Origin: Candidatus Competibacter sp.
GTDB lineage: Bacteria > Pseudomonadota > Gammaproteobacteria > Competibacterales > Competibacteraceae
NCBI GenBank assembly: GCA_029624815.1
Contig: JARSSH010000025.1
Coordinates: 1-64,000, forward strand
Length of the DNA: 64,000 nucleotides
Reading direction: 5' to 3'
The translations under genes were made by a program, and so were the position numbers. Shown piece by piece: positions 43,636 to 49,060 of this stretch. Positions within the stretch are counted from its first letter, which is position 1; each line of letters opens with the position of its first letter. The notes beneath the pieces were generated by a model that saw only the letters and a program-made list of their open reading frames with translations, ran no database searches and was not told the DNA's origin.

Positions 43636-43847
43636 GATTTTTTCATCTTGGAAGCAAATACCGATCTGTCAAGGCCTGTAGCCAGCCAAACCGGGATATG
43701 CCCAATCGCGGCCGCGCGCCGGATTCAATGGCGCATCCCGGCACGCGATGACCGCTCCACCCCTTTGGATGCCCATTCGGCGGGATTGATTCGATCCATA
43801 ATTTTTATTATTTTAAAAATATAAAATGTTTGTGGAGCATCTCCCCA

Positions 43848-44360
43848 ATGAACGATCGCGCCTATAACGTGCTGTTTCTCTGCACCGGCAATTCCGCTCG
43901 CAGCATTCTGGCGGAAGCCATCATGAACCATCTCGGCCAGGGCCGCTTCCGTGCCTTCAGCGCCGGCAGCTTTCCCGCCGGCCAAGTCAATCCCTATACC
44001 TTGAAGCTGCTGGATTTGCAGGGCATTTCCACCGAGGGGCTGCGCAGCAAGAGCTGGGACGAGTTTGCCGCGCCCGATTCCCCACTACTGGACTTCGTAT
44101 TCACGGTTTGCGACAAAGCCGCCAACGAAGTGTGCCCGCTTTGGCCCGGCCAGCCGATGTCGGCGCACTGGGGCGTGGAAGACCCGGCGGCGGTGGCAGG
44201 CGACGATGCGCAAAAGATGCTGGCGTTCCGCAAGGCGCTGCGCGAGTTGGAAAATCGCATCAAGATTTTCATGAGCCTGCCCATCCGCTCGCTGGACAAG
44301 ATCAAATTGCAGTCCAAACTGGATGAAATTGGCCAAACCGTGCTGGAGCGCAACGCATGA
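43848..44360 (+). CDS. arsC: Arsenate reductase, thioredoxin-coupled LMW-phosphatase type
   Basis: ATG 43848 has GGAG about 10 nt upstream and gives 170 aa. The P-loop CTGNSARS holds the catalytic Cys, and the redox pair is visible in VCDKAANEVCP. The enzyme reduces As(V) to As(III), which the next gene exports. It overlaps acr3 by 4 nt (ATGA). A second, divergent copy follows downstream. Confidence 0.92.
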   Translation: MNDRAYNVLFLCTGNSARSILAEAIMNHLGQGRFRAFSAGSFPAGQVNPYTLKLLDLQGISTEGLRSKSWDEFAAPDSPLLDFVFTVCDKAANEVCPLWPGQPMSAHWGVEDPAAVAGDDAQKMLAFRKALRELENRIKIFMSLPIRSLDKIKLQSKLDEIGQTVLERNA

Positions 44361-45454
44361 GCGCGGCCTGCGAGGCCAACGCCAAAGCGGCGGAAGGCGG
44401 GCGACTGGGATTTTTCGAACGCTACCTGAGCCTGTGGGTAGCGCTGTGCATCGTGACTGGCATCGTGCTGGGACATTTTTTGCCCGGCCTGTTCCAGGTC
44501 ATCGGTAAGTTGGAAATCGCCCAGGTCAACCTGCCGGTGGCGGTGCTGATCTGGCTGATGATCATCCCGATGCTGGTCAAGATCGACTTTGCGGCATTGC
44601 GCGAGGTCGGCCAATATTGGCGCGGCATCGGCGTCACTCTACTGATCAACTGGGGCATCAAGCCGTTCTCCATGGCCCTGCTGGGCGGGCTGTTTGTCGG
44701 TGGGTTGTTCGCGCCGCTGCTGCCGGCGGATCAAATCGAGTCTTATATTGCCGGCCTGATTCTGCTGGCCGCCGCGCCCTGTACCGCCATGGTGTTCGTG
44801 TGGAGCCATCTGACCAGGGGCGAGCCGCATTTTACCCTGAGCCAGGTGGCGCTGAACGACGTGATCATGGTGTTCGCCTTCGGACCCCTCGTCGGTCTGC
44901 TGCTGGGACTGACTTCCATTGTGGTGCCGTGGCAAACCCTGTTCCTGTCGGTCGTGCTGTACATCGTCATTCCCCTGCTCATCGCCCAGACCATGCGCCG
45001 AGCCGTACTGAAAGCCCGGGGATCGGCGAGCCTGGCGCGGCTGCTTGAGATTCTCGGCCCGGTCTCGCTTGTCGCCCTGTTGACCACCCTGGTGCTGCTG
45101 TTCGGCTTCCAGGGCGAACAGATCGTGAAACAGCCGCTGGTCATCCTGTTGCTGGCGATTCCGATCCTGTTTCAGGTGTTTTTCAACGCCGGCCTGGCCT
45201 ACTGGCTCAACCGCAAGGTCGGTTCGCCGCACTGCGTGGCCGGTCCATCGGCCCTGATTGGGGCCAGCAACTTCTTCGAACTGGCGGTGGCAACCGCGAT
45301 CGTCCTGTTCGGCTTCGAGTCGGGCGCGGCGCTGGCCACCGTGGTCGGGGTGCTGATCGAGGTGCCGGTGATGCTGCTGGTGGCCCATATCGTCAACCGC
45401 AGCCGCGAATGGTACGAAAAGGGATCACGCATCCCGGCGACCCAAACTGTTTAG
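44357..45454 (+). CDS. Arsenite efflux permease, ACR3 family
   Basis: The 365-aa protein has about ten transmembrane segments and the ACR3 signature with conserved Cys in LAAAPCTAMVFVWS (about residue 145). It also has NDVIMVFAFGPL and GPSALIGASNFFELAVA. It exports As(III) using the proton gradient. It is coupled to arsC by an ATGA overlap. ACR3 is unrelated to ArsB, so the symbol arsB is avoided. Confidence 0.94.
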   Translation: MSAACEANAKAAEGGRLGFFERYLSLWVALCIVTGIVLGHFLPGLFQVIGKLEIAQVNLPVAVLIWLMIIPMLVKIDFAALREVGQYWRGIGVTLLINWGIKPFSMALLGGLFVGGLFAPLLPADQIESYIAGLILLAAAPCTAMVFVWSHLTRGEPHFTLSQVALNDVIMVFAFGPLVGLLLGLTSIVVPWQTLFLSVVLYIVIPLLIAQTMRRAVLKARGSASLARLLEILGPVSLVALLTTLVLLFGFQGEQIVKQPLVILLLAIPILFQVFFNAGLAYWLNRKVGSPHCVAGPSALIGASNFFELAVATAIVLFGFESGAALATVVGVLIEVPVMLLVAHIVNRSREWYEKGSRIPATQTV

Positions 45455-45473
45455 TTTTTCGTTGGAGGTTTCC

Positions 45474-45857
45474 ATGAAGACTCTCGAAATCGAGTGGCGT
45501 CACCTGGAAAAAGACGGGCGCACCTGCCTGCGCTGCTCCGACACCTTGCAGTCCCTGCAACAGGTGATCGCCCGGCTCGCCGTCGAATGCGGACCGCGCG
45601 GCGTGCGTGTCGAATACCGCGAAACCAAGCTGTTGTCCGAACAGTTGTCTCAGTCCAATCTTATTCTGTTTAACGGTATACCGCTGGAGTCGGTGCTACC
45701 GGGCGCTTCGGTGGCGGAAACCGAATGTCCGTCCTGTGGCGACCTTACCGGCCAGCCTGCGTTTTGCCGGACTGTTTCAGTTGGAGGCCATACGTTCGAG
45801 GCCATTCCCGCAGCCCTCGTCCGGCAGGCGGCCTGCGCTGTCGCCCAGTGCTGCTGA
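45474..45857 (+). CDS. DUF2703 cysteine-rich protein in the ars operon
   Basis: ATG 45474 is 4 nt after GGAGGT. The 127-aa protein starts MKTLEIEWRHLEKDGRTCLR and has about eight Cys in motifs CLRC, CPSC and a C-terminal CAVAQCC. DUF2703 has no known function; copies are found beside arsenic genes. The Cys pairs could bind As(III) or another thiophilic metal. That is inference from context and composition. Confidence 0.8.
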   Translation: MKTLEIEWRHLEKDGRTCLRCSDTLQSLQQVIARLAVECGPRGVRVEYRETKLLSEQLSQSNLILFNGIPLESVLPGASVAETECPSCGDLTGQPAFCRTVSVGGHTFEAIPAALVRQAACAVAQCC

Positions 45858-45921
45858 CCGAGACTGGGCATGTCCGTCCGGTCGCATTTACATCCTTCAT
45901 TCCCGCTCGAACCGTCGAATC

Positions 45922-46401
45922 ATGAACGTCCTGTTTCTCTGCACCGGTAATTCCTGCCGCTCGGTCCTGGGCGAAGCCACGTTCAACCATCTCGCGCCAC
46001 TCGGCTGGAAAGCGATGAGCGCCGGGAGCCATCCGACCGGCCAAGTCCATCCGCATTCGCTGGCCCTGCTGGCGCGCGAGGGCATCTCGACCAAGGGCTA
46101 TCGCAGCAAGTCCTGGGACGATCTGCCCGTCACGCCCGATATCGTGATTACGGTCTGCGCCAGCGCGGCGGGCGAGACCTGTCCGGCCTATCTGGGGCCG
46201 GTGCTGCGCGCGCATTGGGGCGTGGACGACCCGGCTCACGCCACCGGCACCGATGAGGAAATCGACGCGGCCTTCAGGCAAGCCTATCGGACGCTGCGCG
46301 TCCGCATCGAGGCGTTCTTCGCTCTGCCGCTGGCCGAGTTGCAAACCGACCGCGCGCGCCTGAAAATCGAATTAGACCACATCGGCACGCTACTGCCGTA
46401 G
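45922..46401 (+). CDS. arsC: Second arsenate reductase (LMW-phosphatase type)
   Basis: ATG 45922 gives 159 aa with P-loop CTGNSCRS and redox pair VCASAAGETCP. It is related to, but clearly different from, the first arsC (43848). The P-loop has Cys instead of Ala after Ser. It closes the operon. Why two reductases are kept is unclear: they may differ in electron donor. Confidence 0.92.
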   Translation: MNVLFLCTGNSCRSVLGEATFNHLAPLGWKAMSAGSHPTGQVHPHSLALLAREGISTKGYRSKSWDDLPVTPDIVITVCASAAGETCPAYLGPVLRAHWGVDDPAHATGTDEEIDAAFRQAYRTLRVRIEAFFALPLAELQTDRARLKIELDHIGTLLP

Positions 46402-46675: not shown

Positions 46676-47350
46676 TCAGGAAGGAAGCGTCACCGCCGCC
46701 ATCAATTCCGGCCCGTTGTGGCGCGTGGCGTTCACCGCCGTTCCCACCGGCCAGATGCGTAACCGCTCGGGTGGACAGGGTATCAGCAACGGTTTCAGGT
46801 CAGCGGGATCGGTCAAGGTCGGATCAAGCCAGCGGGCCTCGTCCTGGGGATCGAGAATCACCGGCATCCGGTCATGAATTGGGGCGATCAGTGCGTTAGT
46901 GGTGGTGACCAGAATCGTACAGGATTCGAGAATCTGGCCGTCTCGTTCCCAGCGCTCCCACAGCCCGGCGAAGGCGAGCGCTTGCCCATCGGCCGGGGCG
47001 ATGCAATAGGGCTGCTTGCGCGTTCCGACCCGACGCCATTCGTAGAAGCCATCGGCGGGAATCAGGCAGCGCCGGCGGCGAAACGCCTGGCGGTAAGTGG
47101 GCTTGTCGGCCACGGTCTCGGCGCGGGCGTTGATGGTGCTGTAGGACGTGCGCGGTTCCGGCGACCAGGCGGGAATCAACCCCCAGCGCAGGGCGGCGAA
47201 CTCCCGCTGGCCGGCGGGGATAACCCGGATCGCGCCCACCGGCTGGCTCGGCGCGACGTTGTAGCGCGGCGTCAAGCGCGGCGCGGTCGAGAGCTGGAAG
47301 CGTTCGGCCAGCCTCTCGCCGCTCGTGCATTGGATGAACCGGCCGCACAT
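46676..47350 (-). CDS. yedK: SRAP-domain protein (YedK/HMCES type)
   Basis: The 224-aa protein opens with MCGRF, whose Cys2 forms the thiazolidine link to abasic DNA. It has the SRAP signature NARAE (about 78-82), PADGFYEW and HDRMP. YedK-type proteins shield abasic sites in single-stranded DNA and are linked with SOS genes. It is encoded on the same strand as the LexA/UmuD-like pair, 465 bp from the UmuD-like gene, with a VOC gene between. Confidence 0.94.
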   Translation of the reverse strand: MCGRFIQCTSGERLAERFQLSTAPRLTPRYNVAPSQPVGAIRVIPAGQREFAALRWGLIPAWSPEPRTSYSTINARAETVADKPTYRQAFRRRRCLIPADGFYEWRRVGTRKQPYCIAPADGQALAFAGLWERWERDGQILESCTILVTTTNALIAPIHDRMPVILDPQDEARWLDPTLTDPADLKPLLIPCPPERLRIWPVGTAVNATRHNGPELMAAVTLPS

Positions 47351-47372: not shown

Positions 47373-47759
47373 TCAGGGCATCCGATAGGTCATGGCGCTC
47401 AGCGTGGCCCCCTGCGGGTCTTGCAGCACGCAAAAGCGGCCAACGCTCGGGATGTCGGTCGGCGGATGAAGGAGTTTCCCGCCCAGTTCCTCCACCTGCC
47501 GGGCGGTGGCGTCCACATCGTCCACCGTGACGCAGACGCCCCAGGCGGGCGCCTTGCCGGTGCATGCCGACGTGGGGGCCATCATCCCGCCGACCGCTTC
47601 ACCGCCGACCTTCACCAGCGTGTAAGGCATCCCCGCCCCCAGGAACTCCTCGGTTTCCCAGCCAAATAAGGCGCTATAGAACTGTTTCGCGGCGTCGACA
47701 TCCGTGGTCATCAATTCGCTCCAGCTAAACGCGCCGTGTTTCATCAAGTCTTCGTTCAT
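47373..47759 (-). CDS. VOC-family (glyoxalase-like) protein
   Basis: The start is placed at ATG 47759, with GAGG about 9 nt upstream; ATG 47765 is too close. The 128-aa protein has two beta-alpha-beta-beta-beta modules of the VOC fold (GAFSWSELMTTDVDAAKQFY and GVCVTVDDVDATARQVEELG). Fold members include glyoxalases and resistance proteins; substrate is unknown here. It ends 22 nt before yedK starts, so the two may be cotranscribed. Confidence 0.85.
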   Translation of the reverse strand: MNEDLMKHGAFSWSELMTTDVDAAKQFYSALFGWETEEFLGAGMPYTLVKVGGEAVGGMMAPTSACTGKAPAWGVCVTVDDVDATARQVEELGGKLLHPPTDIPSVGRFCVLQDPQGATLSAMTYRMP

Positions 47760-47814
47760 GGTCATTGCCTCGTCGGTTGCAAACAGGGAGAAAGAAAAGC
47801 CAGCGATGCAGGGC

Positions 47815-48306
47815 TCAGGACGCCAGCCGCCCCGGCCACAGTCGGTGGATCGTCCAGCGCACCACGCCCCAGACCCGCACGGCCCGTCCCGAAACGTCCG
47901 ACCCGTGATCGGGGACGGAACGGGCCGCTTGCAACGCCCGCCGGCCCCGCTGGTCGCGGGCCACCCGCCGCAGCGCGAACGCGCCCTCGACCACCGCCAC
48001 CACCACGCTGCCGGTGCTGGGCACGGTGGCGCGATCCACCACCAGCAAATCCCCGTGATGAATGCCCAGCTCCCGCCAGTCATCCCCCTGGACGCGCACG
48101 AAAAACGTGCCCTCCGGGTTGTGGATCAGGTGCGTGTCCAGGCTCAAAGGCCGTTCGACCCGCTCGTCGGCGGGCGCGGGGAACCCGGCGGGAACGGGGG
48201 TGGCCAGCAGGGGCCAGCCGGACGCCGCCGGGGCGAGGTCCGGGTCCGGCATCCAGGACGGGCAACAGGCATCCAAGACCAGCGATTCAGCGACGGCGGC
48301 GCCCAT
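47815..48306 (-). CDS. UmuD-like protein lacking the catalytic Ser-Lys pair
   Basis: The 163-aa protein aligns without gaps to UmuD across residues 40-115. A cleavage-like Ala40-Gly41 precedes FPAPADERVERPLSLDTHLI. The catalytic Ser of UmuD (SGDSM) is Asp76 here (QGDDW), and the catalytic Lys (FTVKK) is Arg113 (FALRR). Both members of the peptidase dyad are therefore gone, so self-cleavage should not occur. It follows the LexA-like gene by 5 nt, with GGAG at the stop of that gene. No umuC follows. A role as a dominant-negative or as a substrate of the active LexA-like neighbour is inference. Confidence 0.85.
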   Translation of the reverse strand: MGAAVAESLVLDACCPSWMPDPDLAPAASGWPLLATPVPAGFPAPADERVERPLSLDTHLIHNPEGTFFVRVQGDDWRELGIHHGDLLVVDRATVPSTGSVVVAVVEGAFALRRVARDQRGRRALQAARSVPDHGSDVSGRAVRVWGVVRWTIHRLWPGRLAS

Positions 48307-48311
48307 GCGTG

Positions 48312-48899
48312 TTATCTCCGGTAGTTGCGAATCAAGCCGACCACCACCCCGAAGATCGACAAACGATCGCCGGGCCGAAGGATCGGATAGGCGGGATTGG
48401 CCGGTTTCAGCACGGCCGCGCCGTCCTCCACCGCCAAGGTCTTGAGGGTGAATTCGCCATCGACCACGGCGACGACCACATCGCCCGGCCGGGCGGGCGT
48501 ATCCCGCTCGACGACCACGCGATCGCCGGGGTGAATGCCGGCGTCGATCATCGAGTCCCCGGTGACCGGAATCAGCACGGTGCGCGACGGTTGCCGGATC
48601 AGCCAGGCGTCAATCGAACACGCCTCGCCGCTATCGCCGCTCAGGGCCGGCACCCCGGCCGGCACCGGCGCGTCGGCCAGCGGCCGCTCGAAAAAGCGGC
48701 TCGTGGGGGTCCAGCGCCCGGCCGGGGTGCGATCCAGAAACCCGGCGTCTTGCAACCGCTTCAACACCTTGCCGATCCCCGCCCGCGACCCCAGCCCCAG
48801 CACCGCTTGCAACGGTTCGTAGGCCGGCAGGCTGCGCCATTGGGCGTAGTAGTCCTGCAAGCGGGCCAGATAGGCGGCGTCGTCCGAAGGTCGCGGCAT
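48312..48899 (-). CDS. LexA-like self-cleaving repressor
   Basis: The 195-aa protein has a LexA-like winged helix (about 10-75; GIGKVLKRLQDAGFLDRT) and an S24 peptidase domain. A cleavage-type Ala81-Gly82 precedes it. The catalytic Ser116 (TGDSMIDAGI) and Lys153 (GEFTLKTL) are both intact. It should repress until RecA-stimulated autocleavage. A near-perfect dyad lies 13 nt upstream of its start. It is divergent in sequence from E. coli LexA in the HTH, so it may be a second, specialised repressor and not the main SOS regulator. The start has no clear ribosome-binding site. Confidence 0.87.
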   Translation of the reverse strand: MPRPSDDAAYLARLQDYYAQWRSLPAYEPLQAVLGLGSRAGIGKVLKRLQDAGFLDRTPAGRWTPTSRFFERPLADAPVPAGVPALSGDSGEACSIDAWLIRQPSRTVLIPVTGDSMIDAGIHPGDRVVVERDTPARPGDVVVAVVDGEFTLKTLAVEDGAAVLKPANPAYPILRPGDRLSIFGVVVGLIRNYRR

Positions 48900-48911: not shown

Positions 48912-48933
48912 TTAGTAAACAAATGTTAACTAA
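48912..48933. promoter_or_regulatory. Probable autoregulatory operator of the LexA-like gene
   Basis: TTAGTAAACA, two bases, TGTTAACTAA: two 10-bp arms with one mismatch, 13 nt before the LexA-like start. The TTAG/CTAA ends resemble the TTAGTA-N-TACTA type of LexA box seen in Xanthomonas. Position and symmetry suggest autorepression. Confidence 0.65.
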
Positions 48934-49060
48934 CAATAGGCAGTGGAACCGTGGCTGTCAAGCGGTCGGTGCCGACGAACGAAGCCCCGCGGCGTCAGTG
49001 GGTGGGTGGGGGTGGTTCAGTCCCCCGGCAGCCCTCGATGGCCTCGATGATTGAAACTGA

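Follow-up and report, generated by a model that had tools for sequence, protein, structure and literature searches.

The window, meaning the whole 64,000 nt stretch of contig JARSSH010000025.1, comes from a Candidatus Competibacter genome (G000) with a completeness of 99.97%. It carries two adjacent genes, here called A and B, that encode a LexA-like and a UmuD-like protein, and the following features were annotated at this locus:

48933–48961, minus strand: sigma-70-type promoter of gene A, TTGACA-17-TATTGT (sequence pattern).
48912–48933, no strand assigned: palindromic operator TTAGTTAACATTTGTTTACTAA, presumed binding site of A (sequence pattern).
48312–48899, minus strand: gene A, predicted LexA-like autorepressor of 195 aa, with a winged-helix N-terminal domain and an S24 domain.
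47815–48306, minus strand: gene B, UmuD-fold protein of 163 aa without the catalytic dyad (Asp76/Arg113), with Ala40-Gly41 present and a GV.RW...R.WP tail.
47373–47765, minus strand: VOC/glyoxalase-fold protein of 130 aa, 49 nt after B and likely in the same operon.
46676–47350, minus strand: SRAP (YedK/HMCES-type) protein of 224 aa, 22 nt after the VOC gene and likely in the same operon.

Re-reading confirmed both A and B at these coordinates on the minus strand, with a gap of 5 nt, as the original prediction had given them. The VOC gene follows B in nine loci of the family (Competibacteraceae), window included, and the order A-B-VOC-SRAP is also found at loci L104 and L115. The SRAP gene scores 250.8 bits with the SRAP domain profile; proteins of this type shield abasic sites. 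SRAP genes adjoin umuDC and LexA genes in other genomes (PMC3765255). Just downstream of SRAP, the translations of frames at 43830–46401 include ArsC-like low-molecular-weight phosphatases around an ACR3-like permease frame (44357–45454), and this is probably an arsenic resistance cluster. An Rfam match to int-alpA RNA (RF02996; 1749–1821, minus strand, 38.1 bits against a cut-off of 35.8) suggests that a mobile element of the integrase/AlpA kind may lie close to the window start.

Gene A has all the elements of LexA architecture, as judged by alignment, structural model and fold search. The dyad residues Ser116 (in GDSM) and Lys153 (in FTLK) and the cleavage site Ala81-Gly82 can be read from the translation, as first proposed, and none of the four varies in an alignment of 18 sequences. 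The AlphaFold model has three helices and a two-strand wing followed by an S24 barrel, and its top fold match is full-length LexA (3k2z, E = 3.7e-13, Foldseek). The protein scores 76.4 bits with Pfam Peptidase_S24, far over the cut-off, and 80.9 bits with the LexA equivalog TIGR00498, under its cut-off of 110.95. Complete A-B pairs of the family have an A with 72–91% identity to that of the window, and the residues for catalysis and cleavage are unaltered throughout. The third S24 match of the genome, C55, was set aside as a short, signal-peptidase-like frame without LexA architecture.

The operator shares its first base with the end of the -10 box and spans the expected transcription start of A, so that in silico A is the first gene of A-B-VOC-SRAP with an operator on its own promoter. 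At 13 other A-B loci of the family with readable upstream sequence a palindrome, in part imperfect, is equally placed. In the family pattern, the promoter is of the TTGAC type and its -10 box is immediately followed by a TTAGnGTACATTTGTACnCTAA-type palindrome. The A genes of Betaproteobacteria and Magnetococcales have different palindromes near their promoters. A search of the window genome with the operator pattern returned one site at up to three mismatches, a limit at which a regulon with more diverged operators would escape; the 18-base core at three mismatches was no commoner than a reversed control, and no operator was seen at recA. Since the operator is unique in the genome and lies on the promoter of A, A is most likely a single-operon autorepressor, and in relatives most of the strong sites likewise lie at the A promoter and rarely elsewhere. 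The lack of further operators at this limit in the window genome argues against a role for A as a global SOS regulator, and by this pattern A probably controls only A-B-VOC-SRAP.

Gene B scores 58.5 bits with Pfam Peptidase_S24, far over the cut-off, and its residues 30–115 align without gaps to residues 14–99 of E. coli UmuD (86 residues, E = 1.4e-16), somewhat further than the roughly 75 residues noted at first. In this alignment Asp76 stands at the position of UmuD Ser60 and Arg113 at that of Lys97, while Ala40-Gly41 lies at the cleavage position, all as originally described. The AlphaFold model matches UmuD' (1umu, E = 4.3e-7, Foldseek); residues 1–42 have pLDDT values below 50 nearly throughout, and the N-terminal arm is poorly conserved. 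Neither the UmuD model NF007621 (99.9 bits, cut-off 110) nor the HumD model NF051876 (71.3 bits, cut-off 120) is reached. Matches to phage umuD genes are partial, with about 34–54% identity over short stretches, and a phage origin was discarded. A sequencing error at the two dyad codons, which would have undone the original prediction, was excluded because relatives share the change and a Ser to Asp replacement takes at least two base changes: 14 of 15 other B sequences lack one or both dyad residues, and G030a, the nearest relative, carries the same Asp/Arg.

The family sample consisted of 39 Competibacteraceae genomes, with many incomplete assemblies among the relatives. A and B occur together in 13 of them (G000, G004, G005, G012, G016, G025, G026, G027, G029, G030, G033, G034 and G035), with two pairs each in G026 and G030, and this bears out the original view of a predicted active LexA-like protein paired with a UmuD-like protein unable to cleave itself. 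There are also partial arrangements: G019 has B at a contig edge, in G024 the operator and B are present but A is missing, G025 carries an additional A that lacks a B, and truncated B copies are present in G012 (C91) and G024 (C59). Locus L111 of G033 is a mosaic, with A 91% identical to the window A and B only about 50% identical and nearest to the B of G030:C5; judging by such sequences, the cassette seems to recombine between relatives. Across 16 B sequences the residues at the Ser position are D, E, C, S, A, S, S, E, A, T, A, A, D, A, D and S, and those at the Lys position R, A, R, K, R, R, Q, A, T, A, T, R, A, R, R and T. The original prediction had raised the question whether the Ser-to-Asp and Lys-to-Arg changes are conserved along with the LexA-like neighbor; the pairing is conserved, but the substituting residues vary. 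Positions 76 and 113 rank 8th and 17th in variability among 85, and the Ala-Gly site is intact in some proteins, Ser-Gly in others and gone in several. Because a sizeable share of the B family has lost or changed this site, the earlier suggestion that B might be cleaved in trans is not supported as a general role.

One rival explanation is that B is a decaying remnant, its dyad gone after the deletion of umuC, now drifting and carried along by a selected A, VOC and SRAP. This we consider improbable, although B evolves faster than A, its cleavage site is eroding and truncated copies exist. Each of the 15 full-length copies that were read has an open reading frame, and the 16 sequences, from proteins often only 45–60% identical, share 18 invariant positions (including G85-D86-L87, D91-R92, G147-V148, R150-W151, R155 and W157-P158). 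The dN/dS ratio is about 0.2–0.36 for B against 0.07–0.15 for A by NG86, a simple counting method that may overstate constraint in GC-rich genes, and the median pN/pS is 0.59 for B and 0.25 for A. For the B genes of G000 and G030a, pS is 0.62 and pN 0.25 (Fisher p = 1.4e-13), and since both lie in A-B-VOC-SRAP loci without umuC, they most likely diverged after its loss, with pN well under pS. The pairs G030b-G033, G025-G035 and G026b-G019 likewise have pN below pS (p from 6e-9 to 3e-7). By these counts B is under purifying selection, weaker than that on A and with the dyad positions exempt. A relative with an intact dyad had been named as a sign of a single decaying copy, and one was found: G034, the only one of the 16 B sequences with both Ser and Lys. 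It is, however, the first to branch in the family clade, which does not fit a single recent decay, and judged by the conservation of A and B together in 13 genomes, B is not a single decaying copy.

A search of species genomes at the protein level found an A homologue together with a UmuD bearing intact Ser/Lys in Betaproteobacteria (L035–L038) and Magnetococcales (L039), and in L036, L038 and L039 A, intact UmuD and complete UmuC are consecutive. Two relatives of the window genome carry umuC remnants directly after B. In G024 a break follows the first 73 umuC codons, and the 3' portion lies inverted close by. The remnant in G005 spans 40 residues, and a second, intact umuC stands 1.5 kb further on. 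An HNH-endonuclease-like frame, recognized by eye, lies between these two in G005 (L108:1529–2368, minus strand). No umuC remnant was found in the 64 kb window. Because of the intact rows elsewhere and the remnants after B in two relatives, the ancestral cassette is, as judged by gene order, one of LexA2-like repressor, umuD and umuC from which umuC was lost later, probably more than once.

In a tree of 49 UmuD-type sequences, well-supported branches force three changes between intact and dyad-less forms, and the dyad was lost at least three times independently, in Competibacteraceae, Magnetococcales and Cyanobium/Synechococcus. In two of these three the dyad-less UmuD lies beside a repressor with an intact dyad. 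The Magnetococcales loci L075 and L080 have an intact-dyad A followed by a B in which Ala replaces Ser, and umuC adjoins B in L075 and is 2.6 kb away in L080. Here the dyad-less UmuD (L075:4354–4722 and L080:4369–4725) seems to start near the UmuD' position, as a gene-encoded processed form. The Cyanobium/Synechococcus paralogues carry Ala/Arg (L040, L053, L058, L067, L071, L076, L078, L084 and L093), keep Ala-Gly and have no umuC directly behind them; L084 has a separate umuD with Ser/Lys, and umuC, 2 kb off. As umuC is present alongside the dyad-less B in G005 and Magnetococcales, loss of the dyad is not just a consequence of the loss of umuC, which further weakens the decaying-remnant explanation.

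The original prediction noted the absence of an adjacent umuC or error-prone polymerase, and a domain search extended this: no Y-family polymerase (IMS domain) was found in the whole window genome. With umuC missing from operon and genome alike, the locus is indeed not a standard SOS operon. The genome also has no PolB, a single copy of DnaE and no canonical LexA, and imuA-imuB-dnaE2 is absent after gene A at the window locus. With no translesion polymerase found in the window genome, the suggestion that B blocks one finds no target there. IMS matches are absent in 12 of the 13 genomes with A and B, and in six of the seven of those that are at least 93% complete. In the family as a whole, nine of 39 genomes have a Y-family polymerase domain, and the ten checked for PolB and DnaE all lack the former and have a single copy of the latter. 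Canonical LexA scores over the cut-off in two of 39 (G011, 237; G017, 234), neither of which has A and B. It seems that Competibacteraceae have lost most of the SOS response and translesion synthesis. B might still serve an unrecognized or horizontally supplied polymerase, such as a UmuC on another element, or DnaE in bypass. In G005 one contig carries both an intact umuC and a dyad-less B, which is in keeping with this, but the lack of Y-family and PolB polymerases in the window genome, and of Y-family domains in 12 of the 13, makes this reading a very remote prospect.

We give about an even chance to the reading that A and B are the remnant of a damage cassette, in which B is a non-self-cleaving UmuD that works without a translesion polymerase, likely on the replisome or RecA. 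A would repress only its own promoter, and upon DNA damage RecA filaments would trigger its self-cleavage at Ala81-Gly82, as in known families, switching on the operon A-B-VOC-SRAP. With the switch made at transcription by A, autocleavage of B would have become unneeded and the dyad could be lost; such redundancy is suggested by L075 and L080, where a dyad-less B that follows a predicted active A seems to begin at the UmuD' position. Deletion of umuC, probably repeated, would have left B as a damage-induced, non-self-processing UmuD-fold dimer that most likely restrains or manages the replicase (Pol III alpha or the beta clamp) or RecA by binding to it, with the neighboring SRAP protein, by analogy with its known relatives, shielding abasic sites. 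In E. coli, UmuD contacts both Pol III alpha and the beta clamp, and functions beyond its service to UmuC have long been proposed for it. Its grip on alpha relies on the N-terminal arm, and the poor conservation of this arm in B weakens the case for a replisome target. What makes such a target plausible is that catalytically dead E. coli UmuD S60A still binds Pol III alpha (PMC5342242), and an arm variant of S60A disrupts the alpha-beta contact (PMC5342242). Given that the pair is conserved across the family, the protease-dead UmuD probably serves a function in its own right.

Another possibility, which we think considerably less likely, is that B is a pseudoprotease partner of A, forming a heterodimer via the C-terminal strand and acting as corepressor or in cleavage control, and in some species being cut in trans. 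The more specific form of this, a two-protein S24 sensor in which a protease-dead former UmuD heterodimerizes with A and sets the threshold for DNA binding or cleavage, appears a little more doubtful still. The close adjacency of A and B in 13 genomes would fit a partnership, but descent from the cassette fully accounts for it. The C-terminal tail of B is invariant and lies in the region where S24 dimers pair; however, its GVVRW part is already present in the intact UmuD of L036 and L039, which has a UmuC partner, and so the tail need not contact A. Precedents include UmuDAb with its corepressor DdrR and gp7 with LexA (PMC11332147), Hex of phage 434, which is encoded with the repressor and blocks its RecA-mediated autocleavage (PMC3564112), and UmuD S60A, whose arms an active partner is able to cleave in trans (PMC5342242). 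Against these stand the missing Ala-Gly site in several B proteins, the B of G024 that has outlived A behind the operator, and the second A of G025 that has no B.

If B is a UmuD at work without a translesion polymerase, then a lineage that has no known polymerase of this kind, and keeps a selected, dyad-less UmuD behind a damage-responsive-looking promoter, is a natural case of separation of function, and it allows a direct test of the roles of UmuD beyond UmuC. UmuD autocleavage would, as the tree indicates, have been dispensed with at least three times independently. A literature search that had most subscription papers outside its reach turned up no description of a UmuD that lacks the dyad in a genome devoid of translesion polymerases.

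Among known systems, B shares with E. coli UmuD/UmuD', the Pol V subunit, the S24/UmuD fold, the long ungapped alignment and the Ala-Gly position, but differs in lacking the Ser-Lys dyad and any UmuC in operon or genome, in its longer and variable N-terminal arm, and in an extra RLWPGR tail. HumD of phage P1 is, like B, a UmuD homologue outside a normal umuDC operon, whereas B retains the N-terminal arm and scores below the HumD cut-off. The Cyanobium/Synechococcus paralogues, also with a replaced dyad, a retained Ala-Gly and no umuC directly behind, are of independent origin in the tree and have no adjacent A-like gene. In Acinetobacter, a genus without LexA, the S24 repressor UmuDAb has an N-terminal DNA-binding domain and a small partner, DdrR (PMC11332147, PMC4807011); UmuDAb controls several umuDC operons, and A apparently a single promoter. 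By its description DdrR is small and specific to Acinetobacter, whereas B is an S24 homologue; because of the S24 fold of B, the two are unlikely to be the same. HdiR of Lactococcus is LexA-like, as A is, and represses itself and a umuC homologue where LexA is absent (PMC8565304), but it clusters with phage repressors, and a second UmuD-like gene is not described there. A also resembles LexA2 of the lexA2-imuA-imuB-dnaE2 cassette (Pseudomonas putida type), a second type of LexA that seemingly governs only its own cassette; P. putida LexA2 controls its own operon (PMC3901139). The genes behind A are instead a dyad-less umuD, VOC and SRAP, with the polymerase absent, while on a Rhodanobacter plasmid an A homologue (42% identity) lies between SRAP and imuA-imuB-dnaE2.
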